A stretch of 44,221 bases of DNA, from positions 14,189 to 58,409 of the forward strand of contig VXPE01000135.1 in NCBI GenBank assembly GCA_009839745.1. Reading direction: 5' to 3'. Positions 99-19,719 of the stretch are shown one piece after another. This DNA is from Candidatus Poribacteria bacterium (GTDB lineage Bacteria; Poribacteria; WGA-4E; WGA-3G). A program made the position numbers and the translations under genes. The notes under the pieces were generated by a model. The model worked only from the letters and a program-made list of their open reading frames with translations. It searched no databases and was not told the origin of the DNA. Position 1 is the stretch's first letter; the number at the start of each line of letters is the position of its first letter.

Positions 99-572
99 TT
101 AGAAAAACCGTTTCTGTAGGAATCCAAAAATGCCCTGTTTTTCGGGTTCGGGTTCCGGGGTTACAGGGGCGTTCTGTTGACGGTCCGGAATGGCGAATCC
201 TATGAAATTCCGTTTGCCAAGCTGCTGCATAAACGTAAAGAGGGACGTTTCCGCTTCTTTCCGAGTCAACTGGTACTGTTTTTGGACCCCCTTTATAATC
301 TGTGAAAGGGTATGCTTACCGTCGCACATCTGCCACACATAAGTTCCGATAGAGTCTAAGACAATAACCCTTCTATCAGGGAGCATAAAGAGTTTACTGG
401 CGAGTCGGATCCAGAGTTTGTCTTTCTGGGGAACAACGAGTGAGGCTTCGCCTTTGTCGTCTATCTCCCAGTTTATCAACTGATTCCGAACGGGGAACGA
501 CTTCATAAGCCGAGTCCGATCCATATCCGGACGTTTCTTAAGTTTGAGGGCGTATAGAATTCTGTTTAGCAT
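99..572 (-). CDS. PqqD-family (RiPP recognition element-like) protein
   Basis: A 157-aa protein. Residues about 55-125 read as a PqqD-like winged-helix domain: a beta hairpin, then 'DSIGTYVWQMCDGKHT', then 'LSQIIKGV' and a helix ending in 'FMQQLGKRNFIG'. The motif of hydrophobic residues, DGxxT and a final L..rgfi is typical of PqqD (PF05402). Such domains bind a precursor peptide and present it to a radical-SAM enzyme, but no radical-SAM enzyme or precursor peptide is visible here. The N-terminal 50 residues are basic, and the C-terminus is a Pro/Glu-rich tail. The ATG at 572 has no strong ribosome binding site, and an internal Met (residue 17) is possible. It lies about 130 bp downstream of the 348-aa gene on the same strand, so the two may form an operon. 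Function beyond the fold is unknown. Confidence 0.75.
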   Translation of the reverse strand: MLNRILYALKLKKRPDMDRTRLMKSFPVRNQLINWEIDDKGEASLVVPQKDKLWIRLASKLFMLPDRRVIVLDSIGTYVWQMCDGKHTLSQIIKGVQKQYQLTRKEAETSLFTFMQQLGKRNFIGFAIPDRQQNAPVTPEPEPEKQGIFGFLQKRFF

Positions 573-701: not shown

Positions 702-1748
702 TCAATGGCATTTAATACTTTCGGCAACCTTTTGAACGGTCGAACGCACATCGGTACTGCTGATAGACTGGATGACATAGATACGGTTGGACTGATTGCA
801 TCGCCATAGATGAAATACAAGGGCTGTCCTCTTGGATAACTTATCAAGCATCAGCACGGGACTGAATGGCACACCATCATAGAGCCGTGTTTGTTCCCCG
901 ATAAGCGTCAAACATTCATCCGCCGAATCTGGGTCGGATGTTACTTCAAATCCATAGCCACGAATCGCTTTTGCGTATTTGGCGCGAAACCATGTCTCTA
1001 ATGGATTTGAGGTATCTTTATAGTCGCTCAGCATCACCTCTGCTGGTCCGTATCGCTCCACACTCAGGCTCCCTTTATCGGGTACGACCGAGGTTACTTC
1101 GCCTCTATGATCTTCTAAAGAACCATTATTTCGTAGACGACTGCTTACCAGTTTCGCAAGCCGTACTGCACTCTGAAAGCGGACAGGTTTTGCAACGAAG
1201 GCGAACAGCAGGTAGCCACTGAGCAGTTTCTGACGTTCCAGCTTGTATTCTTTTGGAACCCCTAACTTAAGCCCATAAGCACTCCACAATGTTAGTGGTG
1301 CGTCCCCGCGGTCTGTAATTGATTCAAAAACCCGAAGGACCGTAGGTCGCCAATTCTCTTTGAGCCGTCCCATCACCTGCACGATCGTAATCCGTTTCCC
1401 GGTGTGAAAAATCAGCCCACTTGCACGGATACTCCCCTTCCAACTGAAACCGAGAACGGTGCGTCCCTCAAAGAATTCCGCTTCTTTGATGAAATTAACG
1501 TTCCGACGGAAGGAAAGTTCGGTCCCCTTCTTATACGTCTTGCGGATCAGTTTGAAGTATTCGTCGAGTGTCGCGTGAAGATCCGGCTTTTTGCGTCGGG
1601 TATGTGCCCATTTAAGTTCAAGGCGAGGCATCTCTGGATCGTCAAGTCGGAGATATCCTGTTTTCTGATCTCCGCTAAGCCCACTCAGTTCCCATGTCGT
1701 GGGGATCTCCAATTCTATACCTGCCCACCCAAAAACAGTCCATTCCAT
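702..1748 (-). CDS. Hypothetical protein with two PsbP/DUF1795-like halves
   Basis: A 348-aa soluble protein with no signal peptide or membrane segment. I do not recognise a named family. It reads as two related halves, each starting with a beta hairpin of the type 'GIELEIPTTWEL' (about residue 10) and 'GLKLGVPKEYKLE' (about residue 160). Each continues into a strand-rich region and a helix near its end ('VLRVFESI', 'TVQKVAESI'). This pattern resembles the PsbP/DcrB/DUF1795 fold, which is inference. The ATG at 1748 is preceded by an A-rich stretch but no clear Shine-Dalgarno sequence. The gene is upstream of and co-directional with the PqqD-like gene, which may be its functional partner. Confidence 0.6.
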   Translation of the reverse strand: MEWTVFGWAGIELEIPTTWELSGLSGDQKTGYLRLDDPEMPRLELKWAHTRRKKPDLHATLDEYFKLIRKTYKKGTELSFRRNVNFIKEAEFFEGRTVLGFSWKGSIRASGLIFHTGKRITIVQVMGRLKENWRPTVLRVFESITDRGDAPLTLWSAYGLKLGVPKEYKLERQKLLSGYLLFAFVAKPVRFQSAVRLAKLVSSRLRNNGSLEDHRGEVTSVVPDKGSLSVERYGPAEVMLSDYKDTSNPLETWFRAKYAKAIRGYGFEVTSDPDSADECLTLIGEQTRLYDGVPFSPVLMLDKLSKRTALVFHLWRCNQSNRIYVIQSISSTDVRSTVQKVAESIKCH

Positions 1749-1903: not shown

Positions 1904-3892
1904 TTAAAAGGGCTTGACGATTACGGCTTTAGAGACAAGTGCAATTGCAACAGTTCCCATACCGATAAGACCCACGCCGCAGGCAAATCCAGCAGCGAGT
2001 ACCGGGTTGTACATATACCAACGCCGCATCCCAAATCGCTTGATCATGTAGAACCGTCCAATGACCGCACCGAGTAGCCGTGTAACTATACTTCCTGGAT
2101 CCGCGCCGATGCCACCGACAATACCGTAGAACCACATTGAGGGGAGTTTAAATACCCACAACATTCCATAGATTGCGAGACTTCCGGTAAACCCGGCAGC
2201 GATGTAATCCCCCCGAATCGCTTGAAGCATCTGACTGTTTCCATCCCGCAGCGACGTTTTCCAGAGACACTCATTTGTGGCGTTAATCGGCCACATCATC
2301 TGTGCGAATGGATACTGGGCACTCGGGATAGGCGCAATCTTCCAGATAAAGTGAAGCACTATGATTCCACTGACAAGTAGAATCGGCATAATCAGCAGTG
2401 TACCCGCGAGATTTGACGTGAAGGTCGTTCCTGTCAATTCAAGGACTCGCCAACTCTGAGTGCCGCGTCCATAGTCCTCGTCTGGGAGTGGCGCGAACCA
2501 GATATCTATCTCTTCATAGCGACTTAAAATAAAGGTGATTTCATGTAGATACGGTATCTCAAAAAGGTCGCGTCCCAACACACCGAAGGTTCGGGCAGTA
2601 ATATACGAATTGATCGGTGTATATAGGAAAGCATAACCTAACAGGAAACTTAACGGGAAATTCGGGACCATCCAGTGAATGAGCCATACAAATCCACCCA
2701 TACCGATGAGCCACATTAATCCCATCAACCATATTGGGAAATCCCCACGATTCGGCGGCGGTGCGAAGGAACCGCGTTCGCCTGCCACTTTTTGGGCTCT
2801 CCGCATTTTAAAGAGCATCGGCACCGAAGCTGCCATCCCTACAACTGCGAAACTAAAGGATTTTCCCATGCCGCCACTCTGCCAGAAATCCAGTCTATTG
2901 AACAACTCAACACCGCGGACATCCAAACCCGGAGTCCACTGGTGGAGAATCTCATACCGGTACAGAATCTGTGGGTTCAAGATAAATTGTGTTGCCATTG
3001 CTGCGATAAATTCCGTCACCACAATCGGGAACGGCAGCACGAACCCGAAAAGCATCTGTCCGAAGTCGGTTCGGAAGGCGAAAACACCAGTGGGTGCGAA
3101 ACCTTCTATGCTCTGTGTGAAATCTATCCACGGGATCTTCAGAATCTGAATCGGCTGGCTCATCATGACACCAGTGAGTGAAGGCACACCGATATAGAGG
3201 AACCCCCAAATGAGTCCTGCCATGGAACCGATAGAGAAAACACGCCATCGCCAGGTTTCTTCTTTACCTGTCGTTTCTGCGAGTGCAGTTGCCCCCTGAG
3301 CACTAATCGGTGCCATTGGGTATGGAAGTCGTTCAAGATCTGCCGTGAGTCGGAACAGAATATACTGTCCACTGACAAAACGCAGGGTTCCCAGCAATTT
3401 GCCTATCAGGTAGATGCCGATAGGCAGAAACCAGTCTGGATGTATGAGGCTTCGCGTGAGCACGCCAACGGAATCGCCTGCTGGCACAATCCACTCTGGG
3501 ATTTTGTCGGCGATTTCATAGGAAGCTGCTTGTGGCGTGTTAATAAAGTAGGCGTACCAAATAAAGTTCCGGTACTGAAGTCCACTTCCGACAGCTGCAC
3601 CTGTTAATCCGAGGAGCATATAAAGCTCCTGTCGTCGGGCAGTCGTAAAAGAACGCCGCGCGAGCTCAGTGAATAGAATAACGGCAACCCAGGGTGCTGC
3701 ACCAGCACCGGATTCACCGGATACATAACTGAGATAAATGGAACCTGGCATCATCAGCAAGCCAACGAAAAGTGCTCCAACAAACACCTTGACCGTTAGT
3801 CCCGACTCAAAGGTCCGAATACCACCTTCAATGTCGTATCGCTGTGCCCACGCTTGCCATTCATCTGCTTGTGATACTCTTTCTCTCGCCAA
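1904..3892 (-). CDS. OPT-like/DUF6785-type multi-pass membrane protein
   Basis: A 662-aa integral membrane protein with about 13 hydrophobic segments. Residues about 184-200 carry 'RLPYPMAPISAQGA', which recalls the motif following an early helix pair in oligopeptide-transporter (OPT/YSL) proteins. The family is probably the DUF6785/DUF6784 relatives often annotated as peptide transporters in Poribacteria and Planctomycetes. The substrate is unknown. The start is TTG at 3892, chosen because GGAAGGAGAA lies about 10 nt upstream and the reading frame has no better ATG. It is followed upstream by a 61-aa membrane protein and the 2443-aa FtsX fusion, all minus strand, consistent with one transcription unit. 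A second, divergent family member lies at 33520-35556. Confidence 0.7.
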   Translation of the reverse strand: MARERVSQADEWQAWAQRYDIEGGIRTFESGLTVKVFVGALFVGLLMMPGSIYLSYVSGESGAGAAPWVAVILFTELARRSFTTARRQELYMLLGLTGAAVGSGLQYRNFIWYAYFINTPQAASYEIADKIPEWIVPAGDSVGVLTRSLIHPDWFLPIGIYLIGKLLGTLRFVSGQYILFRLTADLERLPYPMAPISAQGATALAETTGKEETWRWRVFSIGSMAGLIWGFLYIGVPSLTGVMMSQPIQILKIPWIDFTQSIEGFAPTGVFAFRTDFGQMLFGFVLPFPIVVTEFIAAMATQFILNPQILYRYEILHQWTPGLDVRGVELFNRLDFWQSGGMGKSFSFAVVGMAASVPMLFKMRRAQKVAGERGSFAPPPNRGDFPIWLMGLMWLIGMGGFVWLIHWMVPNFPLSFLLGYAFLYTPINSYITARTFGVLGRDLFEIPYLHEITFILSRYEEIDIWFAPLPDEDYGRGTQSWRVLELTGTTFTSNLAGTLLIMPILLVSGIIVLHFIWKIAPIPSAQYPFAQMMWPINATNECLWKTSLRDGNSQMLQAIRGDYIAAGFTGSLAIYGMLWVFKLPSMWFYGIVGGIGADPGSIVTRLLGAVIGRFYMIKRFGMRRWYMYNPVLAAGFACGVGLIGMGTVAIALVSKAVIVKPF

Positions 3893-4220: not shown

Positions 4221-4237
4221 CATAGTTCAGACTTTAA
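4221..4237 (-). repeat. Gene-end repeat supplying a stop codon (copy 1)
   Basis: A 17-bp sequence, TTAAAGTCTGAACTATG on the minus strand. Its TAA is the stop codon of the 2443-aa gene. An identical 17-mer at 12330-12346 supplies the stop codon of the MDR oxidoreductase gene in exactly the same register. Confidence 0.75.
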
Positions 4238-7200
4238 TCCGCTGGGGTCGGTACTGGATCCATCTGTCCTGCTTCTTCAGTTTCCGATGTGTCCATACCT
4301 TCGGTTCTGCCGCGTTCATGGAACTCTGCTCGAATATCTACACTGAAGGTCCGCCAAATCAGGAGTTGTTTCCGCAGCAGATTGAGGAAACGTCGATTGA
4401 CCCGTTTCCAAGAGGCAATCTCACCACTTTCACGATGGACATCCAACGTGATTTTGTAGAGATCCTCTTCTTCACCACCTACCGGAGATGTAATAAACTG
4501 GATAGACTGGCTCACACCTAAGTCGTAAGGAGCCAACCATACCATCATCCCAATCTGATAGGAATCTTCAGCCTCCACTTGACTGAATGCAACCTGATCT
4601 GTGTAGAAGTCACTGGCGGATTCGTCTGCGTGTGCCTCGAAATAGTCTCGCATAAAAACGTTCAGTCCGAGCGCTTCTTCTTCAAGGACGGTAAAGGGTA
4701 AGTTGAAGTGCCATACATCCCCTTCAGGTTCTGGGAGTTTCCATTTACGTTCGATATCAGGCACTGCCATCCGTGAAGCCTTGATTGCCGGATACATGGT
4801 ACTGAGTAGAACGACAAGCATGACAATAATTGTTGCGACAACGGTTGACATTGACGAATAGTTAAGCGTCAGCCCAGCGAGCCAACCGAAATGCACGAGG
4901 GTTGTTGCGATGGCTTGGCCCATAAGATAGCCTAACACCGCACCCACGATGGCATATACACATGCCTCTGCAAGGAAGAGGAAGGCGATATGCACAGGTG
5001 CAAGTCCGACGGAACTGTAGATGCCGATTTCACGTACCCGTTCATAAACGGCTCCCAACATGGTGTTAAGAACGATAAGCGCGGCGATCAGGATCGGTAC
5101 GAACAGGTTACCCATACCGCTGAAACTCGTCATTCCGATACTACTGTAGAGATATGTGTCTTTATCGCGTCCTACAAAGAAGTCAAGGGCAATGCGGTTC
5201 ATGAGTGGTGCCATGATGAGGTCTAACTTATCGATCGCGCCTAACAACTTCGGATCATCCTCTTGGGGCTCCATGTTAACGGCAACACTTCGGAGTGTGC
5301 CTCCTTGATTCATAACCACCTGATAAGGAAGGATAGCGACACTGTCTGGCGTGAGATGGAGGTATTTCTGTAATTCACCTTCAAGCGTCTCATCACCCGT
5401 TGCACCCCGACTTCGCTGCTGCTGCATCAACTGATAATCAACAGGCGTAAGTTCTTCGCCATCGTTATCAGTAAGATCCTTGAAACCGATACCGAGGACA
5501 CCAACGACAGTAAAGTCGGCACCGTAAACAGAGACGGTGGCTTTACCCATATCGCTTTCGGTGATCTTGAGCAATTCTGCCATTCCTTTGGGCAGCACAA
5601 TGGCATAAGGCCACTCCGTCGGCCATTCATTGGCATCTGCTGGGTCAAACCATTTTCCGTATTGGAGGTATCTATCAATACCACTGACACCGGGTTCTGA
5701 TTCATTCATACCCACGAGCATGTTTGCCGCGAAAGTCAACGCTTCACCCGTGAGTTGATGCGTTGGTGGCGATGTATCTGCTGTGTTTGCCGTGCGTGTA
5801 AGTTGGACAAACGATTGGTCGCCAGTTCCTGAGGATTGATACCAAGCGCGCGGTGCGACGACGTTCCGAACGATTAAGATGGACTCTTCGTCTACTTGCT
5901 CAATAAACCCACCTTCTTCTAAAGCCCTACGTGCTTCCGCGATGTCAACGGGTTGTTGCCCTTGTTTAACCAAGAGTTCGTTCTTACGTTCCAAAAGCCG
6001 TTCTAAGGCGGTAAGTGTGATTTGCGTCTTTTGCATGTCATTCAGCACGGAGGTAAGCACCGGTTCCTCAAGTGGACGCCAATACTGGTCGCGGATAAGA
6101 AGTCCGGTATAACGCGGTGTCACTTGCGGAAGGCTCGTTCGATTCGGGTGCATAAAGGTCCGCACAGAGGTAAACGATATAACAGTAAAGGTAAGGATTA
6201 CCAACGTACAGCAGGTCAGGATCGTCCGTCCTTTCCGTTTCCGCATGTTGGAAATACCCAGACTAAATGCAGCAGCGCTCGCACTCAACCGACCGACATC
6301 GGCTTTGTAAACTTTACTGCCCTCTTGTCGGATCTTTTCGAGTTGCTCCTCAAATTTTCGGACAATGATACTGATGACAATAACCGTCAAGGCAAGCACA
6401 ACAAACGCGATTAGAATAATCACAGGTGTGGTAGTAATCTGGAATGCGGGGTGAACCTGGCTGAGGAAGAAGAATACAAGTAAAAAGATGCCGAATGAAC
6501 CCAAAATCTGTTTATGGATATTCGGAAAGCCGAAAATGAGCCGTTCCATGAAGTAGGCGAACGGCATCAGCAGGGCAAGATAGAACATCACACCGTTGAC
6601 GACATCGTTACCCGTCTGTTTGACATCTGGGTATGCGCGTGATTCATAACCCCACGCCGCACGAGCGAGTTTGAGTGCCTGTTGATAGTCGCTTTGGAGC
6701 AATTCGGTCTCCGCGCGGGCAAGATAATCGTTCGCAAATTGGTGGAGTTTGTCAAGACGGTCGCTGGAGATACCAAACCGTTTGTAAAGTCGTGAGCGGT
6801 TCTCGTCGAGCCACCACATATCTCGGACAACGACGTAAGGTGTGAGGCGAATTTGCCCATTTTCGCGGACGACAAAACCCTCACCGGTATAGAGCGTCGG
6901 GTTCTTCATACCGCTTTTTGTTGCTTTGATGAGAAGGAGACGTTTACCAATCTGTCCGTATGCCATGCCAACTTTGATACGCGTGTTAGGTTCACTATAC
7001 ACGAGGGCAATGGGTTCGGCTGCGGACACACCTTCCTGCTGCCACGGTTTGGACATCCCGAACTTCTCCGGTGCACTATCCGTGAGGGCATCGTAGACTT
7101 CGAGTTCCCGAAGGGTTCGCAGATACCGCTGATCTACCAAGTCGTAGATAGTTGTAGATACACACGGAAATGTAACAACACGACAACCACGCCTACGGGT

Positions 7201-10200
7201 GTTGATCGGAATTTTATTGGGAAGTAGTTTCGCACCATAATTCCCCAGATCGGGGGCATACACAATGTCTCCTGAATCTTTGTCCAGAATGTATGCTTCA
7301 ACTTCTTGAACACCACTGAGACGCCGTGTAGCTCTGCCTTCCATCGCTAATCCAGCCACCTCAAAATTGCCCTTGTTATCGCCCATCACAAACAGGTCGC
7401 CGCGGACACCCATCATGGTTTTGTGTTTCCTGCGGAGCGTCAAAATCGGGTAAGGCACCGGTTTATTCGGTAGTGCGGACTCCCGTGCGTCAAATTCAAC
7501 GACATCACCGAAGAGGTTACAGTAGAAATTCCCGACACGTGCGGCGGTGGGCATTTCTTCGTCCCGAAGTGCTTGGATGAGTAAGGATGCCAATGTCTGT
7601 GCTTGTTGATGGAGATTACCGCCTTCTCGTAAATCAACGCGTTCAATCGTATCGAGGGGAGTGTCCGTTAAGACGCGGGCATCTTCAATAGTTGCAAAAG
7701 CGATTCCAGTCTTTCCGACAAGCGTGGCGACCTCGCTGTCAAAAGCAATTTTACCCGGAATATAGGTCTTCCACGTCTTTCCGCCGCTTGCGGAGATGGC
7801 GTTAACAAAGTTTGACTCACCGCCGAGACCCGCAATCGAAATAAGAGTTTTAATATCCTCTATTTCTTCATCGGAGAAGGTGTCCGGATCTTCGTGTCGA
7901 AGTCGGAGCATTGCGTCCAACTGCTCACGTGTCCGGATGTTATTCTTTCGATTTTTCTTTGCGGTGCGGACATCATTTCGGATGAAACGCTCAACCTCTT
8001 TGCGGATGTAATCCATATCTTTGAGCATATCCTCAGAGGGTTCACCTTGATTGCGCCACTGTTCAAACTGCATCTTCATCAGTCGGCTCACACCGCTGAG
8101 ATCGGTGAGTTTGTTGAAGTGCGAACTCAATAACGTTTCAAGCGTCTTGCCTTCGAGGGCGGCTTTGTCAGAGATCCCGTTTGCGACCGTCCATTGGCGT
8201 GCCATAACGGCTTGGCGAATTTGATCGTCTGTCCACTGCCAGAGTTTCCGGACACGGACACCGAAATCAGCATCTTCAGCGTAGGAGGCAAGTTTATTGC
8301 CGATGCTTGCAAACTCGCGACGCAATACAAATTCGGGTTGCTGATCGTAGAACCATCCCTTGTTGAATACCCCGAACTGATTCGACTGTGAGGAGAGGTC
8401 AACGCTAATATAGAGAGAGGTATAATACCGGTTGAACAGGTCTTGTAGCGCGATTGCCGCCTCGATCTGTCCAAGCTTTCGGTTGTATTCATCGGTATCA
8501 ATGCGCAACATCTTTTCAATACGACTCTGGATGTTACGGAAACGCGCGTTACGGAGGGTCAACATGTTATCGCGTAGCAGTACTTTCGTCTCTTCATCTA
8601 AATCGGTATCTAATGTGGGTAACCGTTCAATAAGGTTTTCGAGTGCTACGATATCCGTGTCCGCACGTTTTTTGACGATCGCTAACAATTCTTTTTCGAT
8701 AATCTGTGATGCGATGCGAGAGCGCAAAGAAAGTGCCTGTTCAATTTCATCATCTGATAGATAGTTTTCCAAAATGAGACGTTCTTCATCCAAGTATTCC
8801 CGCCCCAAAGTCTCAGCTGTTGTGATCAAATTCTGGATACGTGTTCGTTCCAATCGAGCGTTCCGGAGTGCAATTTCAAAGATACCTTGTTTATCTTTGA
8901 GAAGATCTGCTATCAATACAGCGATATCAGCAGTGTCTCCAGATTCAGATAATCGCTGTCGAAGCTGCGTATCAATAGTGTTGAGACGTTCTATCCCGGC
9001 TTTAGACAAAAACTGTCCGCCATAAATCAAAGAATCGCCACTCGGTTTTCCCATCGGCGTTTCTTTGAGCCGCCGGATGCTCGCTTTAATCTCATTTTCA
9101 ACCGGTTGGCTATCGGGTATTTGTGCCAGAACCTTTTCAAGTAGCTGCGTTTCCCGTTGAATTGCTACTGCTTGGGTGTCATTGGCATCGCGCAGAACAC
9201 TGCGTGCATCTTTTGCTGTATTGAGTGAGTGTAGATCGAGATGCCGGTCAACTATCTTCTCGGGTGTCCACATCAGCGCAAATTTGCGTTTGTCGCTCAT
9301 CTCCCAGTTTGCGAGGGTTTTGTTGAGCATCTCGATATCAGGGATGAGTTCTTGTGGGAGGTCGTCCGGTATTGGAACTTGCCAATCTGAACCCTGTTGT
9401 ACTGGAATAAGATAGGCATTATTAGGATGCGTACTGTATTCGTCGGTACTACCGGTCTCTATCGCGTGAATGAGTTTCTCTACCGCCCATATATCGAGAC
9501 GCGCAATCGGTAGTCCAAGTGATTCAATCAATTCGCGCTGTGCGGATCGACTCGTGTTGAGTGCAACGCCGCGAACCGCAGCTAATCTACCGACAATATC
9601 TCGGAGGAAATGGGTCGTTTGCAAAGCTTCTTTCTTCGAGCGGGCAAGATTTGCTAACAGACGACTCTTCTCTTCACCTGTGAAGCCTTGCTTTTCGCGT
9701 TTTCGATTCCTATCCGCCTGTTTCTTCTGTCGTTCTGAAAAGTCCCGCTGCTGCTCCGTAAGGGATTCAATCTCAGACCGTGTTTCTGCCAAGCCATTCA
9801 GTGTAGTTGTGAGGGAGTCCAAGTCAGACTTTACGTTGTGGATACCGTGGAAAAAGTCGGCAGGGAGATCGACAAGGACGCTCCGGTCAATGGAGAGTAC
9901 AAGCCTTCTGCCTAACTCTTCAAATTCAAGGACATCTGTAGAAAGTCCACGGCGAAGTCCGTGCATTGTTGGGGTGCCGGGTGAATCGGTGTCGGAACCG
10001 ACGATATCTTGTCCAATACCTTCCATAAAAGCACGCATACCGGCAAGCCCTTGGAAGTGTCCATCGACTGCAACAAAGAGGACAGAATAGCCGGGTCGAT
10101 ATTGGGGTTGACTGAAGAGACGCGCAAGTTCCATGAGGGTCGCGATACCGCAAGTTGGATCGGCACCGGGTGCCATTGCCGGAACAACCGACATGGAGTC

Positions 10201-11565
10201 GTAATAAGCCGTGAGAACGATGAGTTCATCGCGTAAAGTTGGGTCTCCGCCTTCCAAAAATCCGCGTATATTTTGCCCGACGCGGCGTTCCCACGTCATC
10301 TTCCCTCTCACACGAACATTGACTTGATCGCCCTGAGTGTGTTGTTCCTCCATCAAATTGGAGAGGGCAGCAGCATCTTCTTGGGATATCCAAAATCGTG
10401 GTATGTTTGCAGGAACGGTCCCGAACTTATTTTCTGCTTCTCCTCGAATGGTTGTGTCGGGTTCGATGAAAATCACAGCAGTGCCACCGAGCATTGCTGC
10501 ATTGATATAACGAGTACTGGAGTTAAAATCGAGAAGGACTATTGCCCCTTTCGGAATAAAGATGTGAGATTCACTCGCAGCGACAAACTCACCGGATTCA
10601 TCGATTTCTCCATTGTTGTTATTATCTATTCCATCAGTGTCATTCCCCGGAGTTTCATCTGTCCAACCATCGGCATCGTTATCAATGCCATCTGTTGCCC
10701 ATCCTAAAATTTCAGAGAGCAACGGGATTTCACCGTATTCATCAGTAGTGCCATCCTCGTCATTGTCAATGCCATCGGATGCTTTTTGCAGATGTTCATT
10801 AAGTATATCATCGGTAATGCTGGCTTCGGTGATGCGATACCGTCGGGCGAGCGTTGTGAGTGTATCCCCGTCTTGGAGTTTGTACCAAAATCCACCAATG
10901 TTAGTGCCATTGAAATCAGCGAGTTCAGCATCATCGCCATCAAGGAGGGGACCAGATAAACCTCCTGTTGGAATAAATACTGTGCTTCCTTCGACAACCG
11001 GAGTCGCCAGAAATTTGTTCCGATCGTCTGCAAGGATAACCGTCTCGTCAATTTGGTAACTTTCTGCGATGTCTTTAAGCGTTTCGCCTGCTAATACAGT
11101 GTGTTTAATGCCGTCTGCTAATAGCGAGGTCCGCACAAGGTTGGGCCAGAGGGGTGTGAGTTTAAAGGCGTGTAACACATCGCCTTCCGGTGAGAGGACT
11201 TCAATGATGCTATCACCTTGGTCAATCGGCACAGTGACGGAAAATTCGCGACTTTCTACGTTCTGCAAACCGGTTTCGACGAAACGATCAAAAATGTATT
11301 TACTCCCACTCGCAGCTTGAGGATAACCCGTTACGCGACTGTCGAGACTTGAGAGGCGTGCGATATCCTTTCGAAGGTTGCCTATAGAGAGGTCATCCCG
11401 AATCTGAATGGCTGCAGATTGCATGCCGGTACTGGAAACCGCTTGTGCGTATACAGTATCCGAGAGTTGCCCAGCGACAAGCAAAACCGAAAGAAAAAAC
11501 ATTAATACATTTGTTAGTGCACTGAAGTGCCGCTCTCGGTACTCGTGTCTACTATGAATTTTCAT
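4234..11565 (-). CDS. Giant M28-like/LysM/coiled-coil/FtsX-type permease fusion
   Basis: A 2443-aa envelope protein. Domains in order: N-terminal signal or anchor helix (about 16-40); M28/PA-like region (45-150); LysM-like unit (about 155-197, starting 'HTVLAGETL'); a second LysM-like unit (about 225-340, 'YKLQDGDTLTTLARRYRI') interrupted by three Asp-rich 'DGIDNDxDG' calcium-type loops (262-320); M28 aminopeptidase-like core (about 440-520); a long charged helical region (about 560-1250); a beta-rich region (about 1255-1640); membrane helices (1655-1745, 1775-1800); a MacB-type extracytoplasmic region; the FtsX core with three helices (about 2150-2265, including 'ERVREIGIYSSVG'); and a 180-residue cytoplasmic tail. 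The M28 site is degenerate: 'TAYYDS' replaces the His of HxDS, and 'VDGHFQG' has Asp where Glu is usual, so peptidase activity is doubtful. FtsX-family permeases normally work with an ATPase, and none is in this window. The start ATG has GGGAGA upstream. A likely job is mechanical or lipoprotein transport coupled to a peptidoglycan-binding arm. Confidence 0.85.
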   Translation of the reverse strand: MKIHSRHEYRERHFSALTNVLMFFLSVLLVAGQLSDTVYAQAVSSTGMQSAAIQIRDDLSIGNLRKDIARLSSLDSRVTGYPQAASGSKYIFDRFVETGLQNVESREFSVTVPIDQGDSIIEVLSPEGDVLHAFKLTPLWPNLVRTSLLADGIKHTVLAGETLKDIAESYQIDETVILADDRNKFLATPVVEGSTVFIPTGGLSGPLLDGDDAELADFNGTNIGGFWYKLQDGDTLTTLARRYRITEASITDDILNEHLQKASDGIDNDEDGTTDEYGEIPLLSEILGWATDGIDNDADGWTDETPGNDTDGIDNNNNGEIDESGEFVAASESHIFIPKGAIVLLDFNSSTRYINAAMLGGTAVIFIEPDTTIRGEAENKFGTVPANIPRFWISQEDAAALSNLMEEQHTQGDQVNVRVRGKMTWERRVGQNIRGFLEGGDPTLRDELIVLTAYYDSMSVVPAMAPGADPTCGIATLMELARLFSQPQYRPGYSVLFVAVDGHFQGLAGMRAFMEGIGQDIVGSDTDSPGTPTMHGLRRGLSTDVLEFEELGRRLVLSIDRSVLVDLPADFFHGIHNVKSDLDSLTTTLNGLAETRSEIESLTEQQRDFSERQKKQADRNRKREKQGFTGEEKSRLLANLARSKKEALQTTHFLRDIVGRLAAVRGVALNTSRSAQRELIESLGLPIARLDIWAVEKLIHAIETGSTDEYSTHPNNAYLIPVQQGSDWQVPIPDDLPQELIPDIEMLNKTLANWEMSDKRKFALMWTPEKIVDRHLDLHSLNTAKDARSVLRDANDTQAVAIQRETQLLEKVLAQIPDSQPVENEIKASIRRLKETPMGKPSGDSLIYGGQFLSKAGIERLNTIDTQLRQRLSESGDTADIAVLIADLLKDKQGIFEIALRNARLERTRIQNLITTAETLGREYLDEERLILENYLSDDEIEQALSLRSRIASQIIEKELLAIVKKRADTDIVALENLIERLPTLDTDLDEETKVLLRDNMLTLRNARFRNIQSRIEKMLRIDTDEYNRKLGQIEAAIALQDLFNRYYTSLYISVDLSSQSNQFGVFNKGWFYDQQPEFVLRREFASIGNKLASYAEDADFGVRVRKLWQWTDDQIRQAVMARQWTVANGISDKAALEGKTLETLLSSHFNKLTDLSGVSRLMKMQFEQWRNQGEPSEDMLKDMDYIRKEVERFIRNDVRTAKKNRKNNIRTREQLDAMLRLRHEDPDTFSDEEIEDIKTLISIAGLGGESNFVNAISASGGKTWKTYIPGKIAFDSEVATLVGKTGIAFATIEDARVLTDTPLDTIERVDLREGGNLHQQAQTLASLLIQALRDEEMPTAARVGNFYCNLFGDVVEFDARESALPNKPVPYPILTLRRKHKTMMGVRGDLFVMGDNKGNFEVAGLAMEGRATRRLSGVQEVEAYILDKDSGDIVYAPDLGNYGAKLLPNKIPINTRRRGCRVVTFPCVSTTIYDLVDQRYLRTLRELEVYDALTDSAPEKFGMSKPWQQEGVSAAEPIALVYSEPNTRIKVGMAYGQIGKRLLLIKATKSGMKNPTLYTGEGFVVRENGQIRLTPYVVVRDMWWLDENRSRLYKRFGISSDRLDKLHQFANDYLARAETELLQSDYQQALKLARAAWGYESRAYPDVKQTGNDVVNGVMFYLALLMPFAYFMERLIFGFPNIHKQILGSFGIFLLVFFFLSQVHPAFQITTTPVIILIAFVVLALTVIVISIIVRKFEEQLEKIRQEGSKVYKADVGRLSASAAAFSLGISNMRKRKGRTILTCCTLVILTFTVISFTSVRTFMHPNRTSLPQVTPRYTGLLIRDQYWRPLEEPVLTSVLNDMQKTQITLTALERLLERKNELLVKQGQQPVDIAEARRALEEGGFIEQVDEESILIVRNVVAPRAWYQSSGTGDQSFVQLTRTANTADTSPPTHQLTGEALTFAANMLVGMNESEPGVSGIDRYLQYGKWFDPADANEWPTEWPYAIVLPKGMAELLKITESDMGKATVSVYGADFTVVGVLGIGFKDLTDNDGEELTPVDYQLMQQQRSRGATGDETLEGELQKYLHLTPDSVAILPYQVVMNQGGTLRSVAVNMEPQEDDPKLLGAIDKLDLIMAPLMNRIALDFFVGRDKDTYLYSSIGMTSFSGMGNLFVPILIAALIVLNTMLGAVYERVREIGIYSSVGLAPVHIAFLFLAEACVYAIVGAVLGYLMGQAIATTLVHFGWLAGLTLNYSSMSTVVATIIVMLVVLLSTMYPAIKASRMAVPDIERKWKLPEPEGDVWHFNLPFTVLEEEALGLNVFMRDYFEAHADESASDFYTDQVAFSQVEAEDSYQIGMMVWLAPYDLGVSQSIQFITSPVGGEEEDLYKITLDVHRESGEIASWKRVNRRFLNLLRKQLLIWRTFSVDIRAEFHERGRTEGMDTSETEEAGQMDPVPTPAD

Positions 11566-15513: not shown

Positions 15514-18500
15514 TTAAGAGATTTCAAACTTAACGTCCGTGGTAGTGTGCAGATATTTTACCAATATAGCGTCCTTATCTTCGATATAAAGCCATCCGGA
15601 TTCAACGTCTTCGAGTGTTTGCACATTTGCAATCTCGATATCTGCATATTTGTCCGGTATGTTGACGGGTTCAGAAGCGTCAGCGGGTGTATCTTCATCA
15701 GCAATGGGAGGTTCGTCCACTGGTGATAAAAACTGATAGCGTGCTCGAAGGGCTTGTGGCACACGTCCATAACCAACAATAAGGGTGTAGCTCGTTTCGT
15801 CCTCGGCATAGCTGAGTTGCCAGTTCAGTTGACCCTTATCGGTTAAGGTAGGTTCATCTACTATTGCACCCGCACTGAGGTGTATCTCCCCGACGATAGC
15901 GGTTTTAATTCCCGGATCGACCCCTCGAAGCGTATAAACATTCACCATAATGTCTTCGGGATTCAAGTGGGGTCCCTTGCCTTCAGTGCAGAACCCATAA
16001 AATCCATCCGGATAGGTGCCTTTGAGCGCACCGTCTTCCCACTGTTGATACATCGCACTTACCGTGATACCCTCAGCGATTTGAAGCCATCTGTCATTTG
16101 GAGTGTGTCGGTTCAAGCGTTGTAAGTAATAAGCGAGAACTAACCCGTTCCATTGAACAGGGACACCGAACCATGGATGCGTGTAAAAAGAGGTCCCGAA
16201 GACGGGGATGGAGGCGAACTGCATACCGGGTCGGTCTGGGAGATGCCAATGGTAGAGGAAGGGTAGGGCGGTTGTCGCCCAATGCGTTGCGTGTTTGAGA
16301 TGTTCTTTTTCTGCTGTCAACTCGTAAGCCTCAACATAAGCACCGATGGCATACGCAGCCGCAAGGACATCTGGTTGATACATCGGGCATTCCCACATTT
16401 GTGCCCCGCGTGGCACGGAAAATTGCTGAATGAATCCGAGTGCTTTCAAACCTGCTTCACGCGAGGTTTTATTCCCGGTAATTCGAGCATGTTTCAACAG
16501 TAAAAGTGCTGATTCAGCACAGGTGCCAAGTGCTGCTTCACCTGCAGTTCCGAGGGAAGTGGTTTTCGCGTCTGTTGGGTGCCACCGCCAACTTCCATCC
16601 GGTTCTTGTGTAGCAATCCGTTGCTGTATTTCTTCCGCCATGTGAGATAATCCGGCACCGATATTGCCGATGTAAAACGGGAATTCCCATCTTAAAATGT
16701 GACACGAACCGCGTGCCGCCAATCCTTCTACTCCGGATTCTGCTATGGTGTTTTTGGCAATTTCTAACACCCGTTCTTTCACGTGTTCATCTTTCGTAGC
16801 AAGATAGTCGTACCAAAGTAGAGTGCCGAAACCGGGTTCATTCTGCGGTGCCCAGTCTACGCAGTGCCGGGATTTTCGAGTCGCTTCATCCCATGTTGTC
16901 TGCATCAACCCGTGCCGTGAGAGTAAAACCTCATCTGCATCACTACGGGGGGGAGGTAACGGTTCAGGGGCACCGTAAGCGTTATTCCAATGCGCTATGG
17001 CATCTAAGATAGAAGCATTTCCATCCACGATGATTTCGGTTTTGATGGACACTGGACGCGCCGGTGTGAGTGGATACGGGATAGAAGCCTCTGTCTGGTT
17101 CTCTCTGACCCATGCTGGCACAGTCGGGACGAATACGCCGAGGGCGTGATTTTTCTGATACTCATGCCAATTGGGCGAAGCGAATACCGCAGAGAGCATC
17201 TGATTCTCACCGTCCCAGGTGTCCAGAGGATTCCAGATGATGCCGACTATGGATTTCTGCATCTCTACTGCCATGACTGGCACTGTGATTTTATAGGGAT
17301 GCGGGACAAGTCGGTTGTCGAACGGTGGAGCTGCGTCGCGTGTGCTTGAGGAACGTTCATCGTTTTCCAAGAACTCGAGTCCAGGGAAAAGTGCTGCCGT
17401 TTTCTTCTCACGATGTCGTCCTTGCCCTGCATAAAGCATCGGACCGCGAAACGCAAGAAGTTCTCTGTTGCCATCCGTTTGCAACTGATATTCCGTTTTC
17501 ACCCGCGTCGCACTTTCGCTAAGCGTCCACTGCATCTCATAAGTCCACTTAACACCATCTACATCTGTATCCGAACCGCTGAGGCGGACAATTGACTCTC
17601 CTTGATTGTTCCCAGCAAGTTGATAGTCTGTAGGTGTAAGTTGCGACGTTTGGCGATTTTGTGATGCATCTAAATAGACAACCTCAGAGAGTGCCGGACA
17701 AGTTGCTACCTGCTGGTAGTTACCACCTTTCGCGACAAAGATTATGCAATACGCAAATCCTCCCTCAATCCCCTTTTTGTCAGAAGCGATGGTCTCTTTC
17801 TTGTTTTCATTCTTAATTGCTGGTGTTGCTTCGAGCCCACGGACGAAAACGATACGAAGGTGTCTGTTCCCCAACACGACACTACCATTTTCCGTATAGG
17901 TATGTAGTTCTTTCACCACCTTGGCGGCAAGTTTAGGGGGCTCAGGGCGGACTACAACGCTTTCTTGGGCTGTTTGGCGTCCCTCGCCTGCTGAGGTTTG
18001 GCATTTGAGCGATACGGAAATGGAGACTACAGTCGGATTTGGGAAACGGCGTGCTATCCAAAAAACAGAGACTTCTTCACCCGGTTCAATTTCTTTAATG
18101 GTTTGTCTGGGGCGTCCACGCCGTAGTTTCACACCATTGATAGAGATTCGCGCCGTATCCGCTTTACCGAGTGGCGCGGTGCCGGTATTCCGAAGTGTAC
18201 ATTGCACTTCAAAATCTTCGCCCGCGGGGACAACTGCAGCCGTCGCTCCTACGTTTACGATTTCTAATTTCGGCTGTGCCGCGTAAAGCGATATTTGGGC
18301 AGGAGGCTTTTCGGATTCGTGCAATTCAAGGCATAAATTTACCACATCGGAAGCCTTCGTTGATGTGGATTGACTGAACTCCCGCAACTGCATCGTGTCA
18401 TCTTTAAAGTGTAGAATAGCGATTCCACATCGTAGTTCCGGTTCGCTATCTCTTTTCCCTTTTCGGAGGGACATCTCTTTAAATTTCCGTAACTGTGGTT

Positions 18501-19719
18501 TACCCCATAAAGCCCACGCGTAGTTACTATTGCCTTCTATATTGCATTCCGTCAGAAATGAGATGACGACCTCTTTACCAGCATAGGACGTGAGTTCAAT
18601 GCTTTCTTCTATCCACTGACATTCGGTTGATATGGATTCAAAACATCTTTCCGGTGCGGCTTCTAAACCTGTATTAAGAAGATCGAAAATTTCGATAGCG
18701 AACTTCACACCTCCAGGCTGCCGTTCCACATCGTTAAAAACAACGCCATCCCGTAATCCGATGGAAAAATGTAGGAAGAGCTTCTCTTTTTCATCGACCT
18801 CCGGAAGTGACAGTGTGTAGTCGATTTTTGCGGCTTCTATTGGGGTGGGATGTTCAAAGATAGCAGGCTTTGTCACGCCGCCGGAACAATCTATTCCGCT
18901 GACGGATGCCTGATCTGTACCGGAAACAGTGCTTTGTTCGAACATCTCTACAAAGTCATAAATTTCTTCAATAATGCCGAGCACTAAGGGTATGGGTTCT
19001 TCCTCAGCTTCAGGGGCGGTTGCTTCTGTTTCGGTGTCGCCGCCTCCGTCTGTTTCCTGCGGTAAGGGGTTTTTGCTTGGGGTTTTTGCTTGGGGTTTTT
19101 GCTTGGGTGTTTCCTCTGTGGATTTCCCCAAAGTTACCTCGTCTTTATCTGCTTCAACGTCAGAAACCTGGGGGCGCTGCGTTATAGTCCCCTCATTTTC
19201 CTGTTCAGATATTACAATTTCCGTTGCAAAGTCTGTCTTATCTTCAGAAACAGGATCGGTGTCTTCCAGTGGCTCAGTTGCTGCATCATCGGACGGCGCG
19301 AGGTTGGTGATCTCGACGCCAGGGGTTTCTTCTGCACTGGATGTATCGGGAGGGTTGTTCTCACTGGCATGAACCTCTTCGTCTATAGAGATGGGTAAAA
19401 CCTCACTGTTAGATTCTGTGTGAGAACTGTCATCATCTTCTATAGCAACAGGGTCCACATCGTCTTCAGACGGTATTTCCTCCGACTCGGACGGCACGTC
19501 AGCGTTTTCAATTTCCGAGGGTTCAGGAACCGGGGTATCGGAGGCATCTGATGCTTCAGATTCAGCATCGTTTGTAGAATTATCGTCAGCTGCGAATTCC
19601 AATTCCGCTTGCTGTTCGTCACGCTGCTCTGTATCGGAAACCGATGGATCGGTCTCATCCTCCGTATTTCCGATACAAGCGGCTAAAAATTGTTGTACAA
19701 TATAGGGCGCGGTGAGCAT
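15514..19719 (-). CDS. Large acidic-linker, CARDB and alpha-toroid protein (glycan-active?)
   Basis: A 1401-aa protein. Residues about 18-240 are a low-complexity Asp/Glu/Ser/Thr/Pro region. A beta-sandwich follows at about 285-410 ('LFLHFSIGLRDGVVF' to 'YAWALWGKPQLRKF'), like carbohydrate-binding jelly rolls. Next comes a CARDB/Ig-like domain (about 483-593), a large beta domain (595-940), an all-helical region (about 950-1300) rich in Trp, Tyr and 'PDGSWRWHP'-type motifs like alpha/alpha toroids of glycoside hydrolases and polysaccharide lyases, and a short beta tail. I cannot assign a catalytic family or acid/base residues. The N-terminus 'FLAACIGN' looks like a lipobox but lacks a convincing hydrophobic, positively charged leader. 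A dispersed repeat provides the ribosome binding site before the ATG. A 13-bp tandem repeat codes for residues about 205-218. It lies next to GH172, suggesting work on glycans. Confidence 0.75.
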   Translation of the reverse strand: MLTAPYIVQQFLAACIGNTEDETDPSVSDTEQRDEQQAELEFAADDNSTNDAESEASDASDTPVPEPSEIENADVPSESEEIPSEDDVDPVAIEDDDSSHTESNSEVLPISIDEEVHASENNPPDTSSAEETPGVEITNLAPSDDAATEPLEDTDPVSEDKTDFATEIVISEQENEGTITQRPQVSDVEADKDEVTLGKSTEETPKQKPQAKTPSKNPLPQETDGGGDTETEATAPEAEEEPIPLVLGIIEEIYDFVEMFEQSTVSGTDQASVSGIDCSGGVTKPAIFEHPTPIEAAKIDYTLSLPEVDEKEKLFLHFSIGLRDGVVFNDVERQPGGVKFAIEIFDLLNTGLEAAPERCFESISTECQWIEESIELTSYAGKEVVISFLTECNIEGNSNYAWALWGKPQLRKFKEMSLRKGKRDSEPELRCGIAILHFKDDTMQLREFSQSTSTKASDVVNLCLELHESEKPPAQISLYAAQPKLEIVNVGATAAVVPAGEDFEVQCTLRNTGTAPLGKADTARISINGVKLRRGRPRQTIKEIEPGEEVSVFWIARRFPNPTVVSISVSLKCQTSAGEGRQTAQESVVVRPEPPKLAAKVVKELHTYTENGSVVLGNRHLRIVFVRGLEATPAIKNENKKETIASDKKGIEGGFAYCIIFVAKGGNYQQVATCPALSEVVYLDASQNRQTSQLTPTDYQLAGNNQGESIVRLSGSDTDVDGVKWTYEMQWTLSESATRVKTEYQLQTDGNRELLAFRGPMLYAGQGRHREKKTAALFPGLEFLENDERSSSTRDAAPPFDNRLVPHPYKITVPVMAVEMQKSIVGIIWNPLDTWDGENQMLSAVFASPNWHEYQKNHALGVFVPTVPAWVRENQTEASIPYPLTPARPVSIKTEIIVDGNASILDAIAHWNNAYGAPEPLPPPRSDADEVLLSRHGLMQTTWDEATRKSRHCVDWAPQNEPGFGTLLWYDYLATKDEHVKERVLEIAKNTIAESGVEGLAARGSCHILRWEFPFYIGNIGAGLSHMAEEIQQRIATQEPDGSWRWHPTDAKTTSLGTAGEAALGTCAESALLLLKHARITGNKTSREAGLKALGFIQQFSVPRGAQMWECPMYQPDVLAAAYAIGAYVEAYELTAEKEHLKHATHWATTALPFLYHWHLPDRPGMQFASIPVFGTSFYTHPWFGVPVQWNGLVLAYYLQRLNRHTPNDRWLQIAEGITVSAMYQQWEDGALKGTYPDGFYGFCTEGKGPHLNPEDIMVNVYTLRGVDPGIKTAIVGEIHLSAGAIVDEPTLTDKGQLNWQLSYAEDETSYTLIVGYGRVPQALRARYQFLSPVDEPPIADEDTPADASEPVNIPDKYADIEIANVQTLEDVESGWLYIEDKDAILVKYLHTTTDVKFEIS
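19066..19114 (-). repeat. 13-bp tandem repeat inside a coding sequence
   Basis: Three perfect copies of GGGGTTTTTGCTT (19066-19078, 19079-19091, 19092-19104) are followed by GGGTGTTTCC. Read on the coding strand, the unit length of 13 means each copy is translated in a different frame, giving KQKP, QAKTP and SKNP. Three copies (39 bp) restore the frame. The same core occurs at 32228-32248 and 34387-34407. Confidence 0.9.

Follow-up and report, generated by a model that had tools for sequence, protein, structure and literature searches.

A single gene conserved across the Poribacteria

In a Candidatus Poribacteria genome, an uninterrupted, stop-free frame of 2443 codons (ORF analysis) joins parts that a sequence-only reading had described as peptidase-like, LysM, coiled-coil and FtsX permease. 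Is this frame one gene, and what could its product do? We analysed it within a window, the whole 44,221-nt stretch of DNA at positions 14189-58409 of contig C135.

4234..11565, minus strand: whole permease gene P0001, 2443 aa (ORF and homologues)

Homologues, mostly full length, were found in 82 of 85 Poribacteria genomes, among them several assembled as a single contig and two that fall outside the class. Across the phylum, identity ranges from 51 to 99%, and the frames are unbroken and of comparable length. In the other three genomes the second gene of the cluster described below is unmatched too, and loss is inseparable there from missing sequence. A merger of two genes, a frameshift and an assembly or annotation artefact were rejected, given the unbroken full-length frames in most of the independently assembled genomes, single-contig ones included. 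A merged-gene error was one of the doubts that the earlier reading had raised about itself; we found no point in its favour and give it practically no chance. The permease frame is a real gene, not a merger. Pfam profile searches upheld the single-frame fusion as well, with FtsX, M28 and LysM all above cut-off.

Among the best 80 matches listed by a short-pattern scan aimed at close relatives, all relatives were Poribacteria. A plasmid collection contained no full-length relative, the matches listed covering at most 6% of the query, and a literature search for the domain architecture of the permease found nothing relevant. The permease system is a core feature of Poribacteria, an uncultured and often sponge-associated phylum.

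A second, solitary copy of the permease occurs in two genomes (G036 and G039; loci L093, L094, L107 and L125); it is 2558-2559 aa long and has an insertion around query residue 1880.

Nested modules and a pseudopeptidase

The following features were assigned to the signal peptide and to the PA, LysM and M28 parts of the chain.

11443..11565, minus strand: signal-peptide-like N-terminus, residues 1-41 (basic n-region, hydrophobic 14-32, AQA site read from sequence)
11128..11418, minus strand: M28-type N-terminal segment, residues 50-146 (hhalign with L130, an M28 protein encoded in this genome, E 1.6e-6, single comparison)
10966..11103, minus strand: LysM module 1, residues 155-200 (Pfam LysM, alignment, LysM1-LysM2 hhalign)
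10546..10890, minus strand: LysM module 2 with inserted acidic loops, residues 226-340 (Pfam LysM positions 1-24 of 43; PA insertion by excision)
10738..10776, minus strand: putative Ca2+ loop DGIDNDEDGTTDE, residues 264-276 (conserved motif; weak MopE metal-binding match)
10654..10692, minus strand: putative Ca2+ loop DGIDNDADGWTDE, residues 292-304 (conserved motif)
10597..10635, minus strand: putative Ca2+ loop DGIDNNNNGEIDE, residues 311-323 (conserved motif)
10363..10545, minus strand: PA domain second half, residues 341-401 (Pfam PA, positions 3-95 of 95, above cut-off after LysM excision)
9874..10308, minus strand: M28-like pseudopeptidase core, residues 420-564, HxD changed to YYD and EE to HF (Pfam, PDB, alignment, hhalign)
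7531..7809, minus strand: possible C-terminal M28 segment (DTPLDT..), residues 1253-1345, ligand His absent (hhalign to M28 C-terminus, P 0.0034, one of nine segments tried)

On the whole permease, Pfam LysM matched in two stretches (E 2.8e-6, 27.6 bits versus a cut-off of 20.9); these matches are weak, each spanning about half of the profile, the first half only. The Pfam PA and MacB_PCD matches in the intact permease are sub-threshold. Upon excision of both LysM modules, the PA score rose to 26.2 bits (cut-off 23.9) and the match widened from profile positions 25-95 to 3-95 of 95. Because excision restores a full, above-cut-off PA match, we take the LysMs to be insertions inside the PA domain; LysM1 is naturally absent from one lineage (G037/G040). 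By these profile comparisons the modules of the permease are nested, not tandem. All modules of the order proposed earlier (peptidase, LysM, coiled-coil, FtsX) are present, but the LysMs lie inside PA and the order is not that of a simple chain.

The two LysM modules were aligned with each other by hhalign at E 3e-18, while control segments gave nothing; by this measure LysM1 and LysM2 are duplicates. Most lineages have an acidic DGxDNDxDGxxDE loop at the equivalent place in both modules; in the window genus LysM1 is without the loop and LysM2 has three. The loops resemble calcium-binding repeats and are putative metal sites, with a weak match to the MopE metal motif in support of binding. Judging by domain type, the LysMs may bind glycan, and the arm may be tethered through peptidoglycan or calcium.

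Pfam M28 matches residues 432-515 (E 6.7e-8; profile positions 1-78 of 193), and hhalign relates the core to the phylum's own M28 proteins (P 5.5e-16). In 24 of 24 permease sequences aligned, Tyr replaces the metal-ligand His, and His-Phe stands in place of the catalytic/ligand Glu-Glu pair. Relative to the bacterial leucyl aminopeptidase (Aeromonas/Vibrio proteolytica), the changes are His97 to Tyr, Glu151 to His and Glu152 to Phe, where we take His97 to be a metal ligand, Glu151 the catalytic residue and Glu152 a ligand. The second metal ligand Asp varies (D/E/Q) among the 24 sequences, and no terminal ligand His is conserved at the expected site of the permease alignment. Metal and catalytic residues are thus lost while neighbouring residues stay invariant. 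The alignment shows a catalytic-position His in the best PDB match, 2ANP, too.

An active M28 peptidase was rejected on the replacement of metal and catalytic residues in all 24 sequences; read from the alignment, the M28 region is a catalytically dead pseudopeptidase. The term 'peptidase-like' therefore holds for the fold relationship, seen as M28 similarity, but not for the active site, which is destroyed in every aligned orthologue. Since strong, ordinary M28 matches turned up in every one of the 83 genomes searched, the change is peculiar to the permease and not to the M28 family in the phylum. Residues 1253-1345 may complete the M28 fold after the arm, a suggestive match only. Splicing the M28 pieces together did not extend the Pfam M28 match past position 78, and the LysM-excised region, aligned to the phylum's own M28 proteins, gave no more than weak local matches.

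Nicalin and nicastrin are inactive M28 relatives. The permease shares with them and with M28 aminopeptidases an M28 core with a PA domain, and its PDB matches are to leucyl aminopeptidase (best 2ANP) and nicalin. Where it differs is in the replacement of the metal His, the catalytic Glu and the ligand Glu, in the LysMs inserted into PA and in the long run of helix that follows the core. It adds a bacterial case of the nicalin/nicastrin-like use of an M28 pseudopeptidase.

The arm, the FtsX core and the topology

Downstream of the M28 core, the chain continues with the following features.

8434..9873, minus strand: helical arm, residues 565-1044 (AF2 helices up to 75 residues, mostly pLDDT ~80-94)
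6616..7530, minus strand: highly conserved region, fold without assignment, residues 1346-1650 (~80-84% mean identity; AF2 low confidence)
6346..6603, minus strand: three extra TM helices, residues 1655-1740 (hydropathy)
6151..6234, minus strand: FtsX TM1, residues 1778-1805 (hydropathy and NMRKRKGRTILT motif)
5134..6150, minus strand: extracytoplasmic domain between TM1 and TM2, MacB_PCD-like, residues 1806-2144 (Pfam MacB_PCD, sub-threshold, E 1.7e-3)
4768..5133, minus strand: FtsX TM2-TM4 with coupling motif YERVREI, residues 2145-2266 (Pfam FtsX 1.6e-12; PDB MacB, LolC, YtrF, LolF)
4276..4740, minus strand: cytoplasmic C-terminal alpha/beta domain, residues 2276-2430 (AF2 pLDDT ~55-80; weak START/Bet v1-like Foldseek match)

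About 1600 residues, after the signal peptide, precede the first membrane helices; with the LysMs and the putative Ca2+ loops, they agree with the earlier idea that a sizeable extracytoplasmic arm is coupled to the FtsX core. The coiled-coil stretch was also recovered, as coiled-coil-like long helices predicted by AF2 at about residues 565-1045, with low confidence elsewhere in the model. Structure prediction of the full chain, proposed as a check, was of use in part: the helical arm and the C-terminal domain are usable, but mean pLDDT was 58 for residues 320-1490 and 44 for residues 1372-2443. Confidence was low in the TM1-TM2 extracytoplasmic domain (Porter/Sabre fold check), in the permease half and in the M28 core. 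Foldseek searches with the AF2 models gave no match at E < 1e-3; the helix-grip (START/Bet v1-like) resemblance of the C-terminal domain is weak (E 5e-3, modest model).

The FtsX assignment is firm (Pfam FtsX, residues 2156-2266, 47.9 bits versus a cut-off of 25.5, E 1.6e-12). PDB profile matches of the core are MacB, LolC, YtrF and LolF, with LolC the best permease match. The coupling and TM1 motifs are nearly invariant in a 51-sequence alignment, and by hydropathy ~340 residues separate FtsX TM1 from TM2. The three extra TM helices would return the chain to the cytoplasmic side ahead of FtsX TM1, which is where the fold needs it, and the arm would be periplasmic. ADOP duplicated permeases (TIGR03434) share the FtsX core, the match being weak; we rejected this assignment, as the score is 26 versus a cut-off of 622 and there is no duplicated permease.

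A five-gene cluster ending in an ABC ATPase

On the same strand the permease gene is followed by four genes.

1904..3892, minus strand: cluster gene 2, 662-aa polytopic membrane protein, no family match
702..1748, minus strand: cluster gene 3, 348-aa protein, no family match, no TM
99..572, minus strand: cluster gene 4, PqqD-like protein (Pfam PqqD 1.9e-11)
contig C135:13089-13901, minus strand: cluster gene 5, 270-aa LolD-like ABC ATPase, starting 287 bases beyond window base 1

The order (permease, 662-aa membrane protein, 348-aa protein, PqqD-like protein, ATPase) and the strand are identical in 67 of the 67 loci where the set is complete; these loci represent ~58 distinct contigs (about nine contigs were counted twice) and come from both of the phylum's classes that were sampled. 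The sequence-only reading had reported no adjacent ATP-binding protein, because the window ends 287 bases before the ATPase gene; in fact a LolD-like ATPase ends the same conserved cluster. The neighbourhood survey that it recommended found this partner gene in the cluster across the phylum, and its alternatives of a distant ATPase or of working without ATP did not hold up against a same-strand cluster ATPase in a conserved order.

Walker A, signature and Walker B motifs are present in the ATPase, as read from its sequence; its nearest families are LolD, DevA, YbbA and MacB, and its closest solved relative is MJ0796. It is the best-conserved cluster member (75-100% identity, median 93% to the window copy), and the 348-aa protein has the lowest median identity to the window copy (60%). 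Cluster gaps are 129-385 bp in the window genome and, between genes 2-5, 1-18 bp in the G037 lineage (L108). In several genomes extra intervening DNA puts the ATPase 4-5 kb away, and in G065 genes 3-5 were not found within ~15 kb downstream. No Pfam, NCBIfam or PDB match was obtained for the 662-aa protein, and no Pfam family match for the 348-aa protein.

The 662-aa polytopic protein is 57-100% identical across the phylum and constitutes a conserved orphan membrane family; its gene is tandemly duplicated at four loci (L122, L123, L124 and L126) of one family (f4), which belongs to the same taxonomic order. Elsewhere in the window, 15514-19719 (minus strand) encodes a 1401-aa protein with a sub-threshold CARDB match only, and in many relatives the permease has an ORF of about this size upstream, at a comparable distance.

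Could the permease work without ATP, or with a shared ATPase encoded elsewhere in the genome? Three genes lie between those of the permease and the ATPase, and neither another cluster gene nor an ATPase was found in the DNA examined around the solitary paralogues (L093, L094). Yet conservation of the five-gene order and strand across the phylum, with the ATPase as the best-conserved member, makes such working very improbable.

PqqD domains bind leader peptides in RiPP systems. The PqqD-like gene, present in the cluster at all of the complete loci, thus raises the option of peptide or RiPP-type processing and export, in which the PqqD-like protein would deliver a peptide, the 662-aa protein would transport it and the pseudopeptidase would bind it outside. 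This is doubtful, and we think it quite unlikely: the cluster encodes neither a radical-SAM enzyme nor any other RiPP maturase, no precursor peptide stood out on casual inspection, and PqqD-like folds occur outside RiPP pathways too.

A probable type VII system with its envelope partner in cis

Type VII systems move parts of the envelope by ATP-driven closure of a transmembrane bundle and are defined by their partner protein (PMC12646458, PMC5985334). Probably, the permease is the membrane subunit of such an ABC system (MacB/LolCDE/FtsEX-like, working by mechanotransmission), with its envelope partner fused to it and the ATPase in trans. In common with MacB, LolCDE and YbbAP (type VII, ABC3) it has a four-TM FtsX-type core, an extracytoplasmic domain between TM1 and TM2, coupling motifs and a LolD-family ATPase. 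In contrast to them it adds an N-terminal arm of ~1600 residues, three TMs and a cytoplasmic C-terminal domain, its ATPase is encoded three genes away and there are extra conserved partner genes.

FtsEX-EnvC and FtsEX-PcsB resemble the Poribacteria system in the FtsX-type permease, the separate ATPase and a coiled-coil envelope element; here, however, the coiled-coil arm is in cis, and no LytM, CHAP or other hydrolase domain was found. A division FtsX was rejected: FtsX_ECD (PF18075) is absent from the permease and present once in the genome, on another contig. Because the genome has this FtsX_ECD protein of its own, and also Mur-ligase-domain genes, the permease is not the division FtsX and a peptidoglycan-containing envelope is plausible.

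We infer a physical partnership of ATPase and permease, the topology given above and mechanotransmission. As it binds and hydrolyses ATP, the cluster's LolD-like ATPase would bring the nucleotide-binding domains together as a dimer, which would push the FtsX coupling helices (the YERVREI loop and the C-terminal PAIKASR segment) and so move the extracytoplasmic parts. The fused envelope partner would consist of the PA/M28 pseudopeptidase with LysM modules and putative Ca2+ loops and then of the long helical arm, the chain re-entering the cytoplasm via the three extra TM helices ahead of FtsX TM1; ATP-driven movement of the arm would do work on the cell envelope. For the ligand of the arm and the physiological job of the system we can offer guesses, of which the likeliest is that a peptide or peptidoglycan-stem ligand sits in the dead M28 pocket while peptidoglycan is touched by the LysMs.

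An extractor like LolCDE or YbbAP, which would pull lipoproteins or lipids from the inner membrane while the arm receives and passes on the cargo, is possible but in our judgement unlikely. LolD and YbbA are among the closest ATPase families, LolC is the best permease match by profile, and type VII systems often extract lipid-like substrates (PMC12646458). However, LolD-family similarity is common to all type VII ATPases, and Pfam found no LolA-like or lipid-binding domain in the arm. The weak START/Bet v1-like match of the C-terminal domain could also speak for lipid cargo, but that match (E 5e-3) derives from a modest model, and the domain is cytoplasmic.

As a tentative reading, to which we give somewhat less than even credence, we propose a type VII machine that is a signature of the phylum. 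Its effector would have been built into the permease by nested insertion (LysM-Ca2+-loop modules in PA, PA in a dead M28, a coiled-coil arm after), and ATP would drive a peptidoglycan-anchored pseudoprotease arm with two protein families assisting.

Elsewhere among type VII systems, the envelope partner (MacA, EnvC, LolA or TesA) is recruited as a chain of its own. Type VII ABC systems are sorted by this partner, normally a separate protein; here it is fused in cis throughout the phylum. What is new is the combination of a known FtsX-type engine, an arm that is unusual in being in cis, and two partner families that Pfam does not match. The five-gene set, which includes the ATPase and both of these families, is a defined system to reconstitute and a handle on the envelope biology of an uncultured phylum. 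Genome G000 is rich in MacB-type permeases: apart from the window protein, fifteen MacB_PCD matches exceed the cut-off there.
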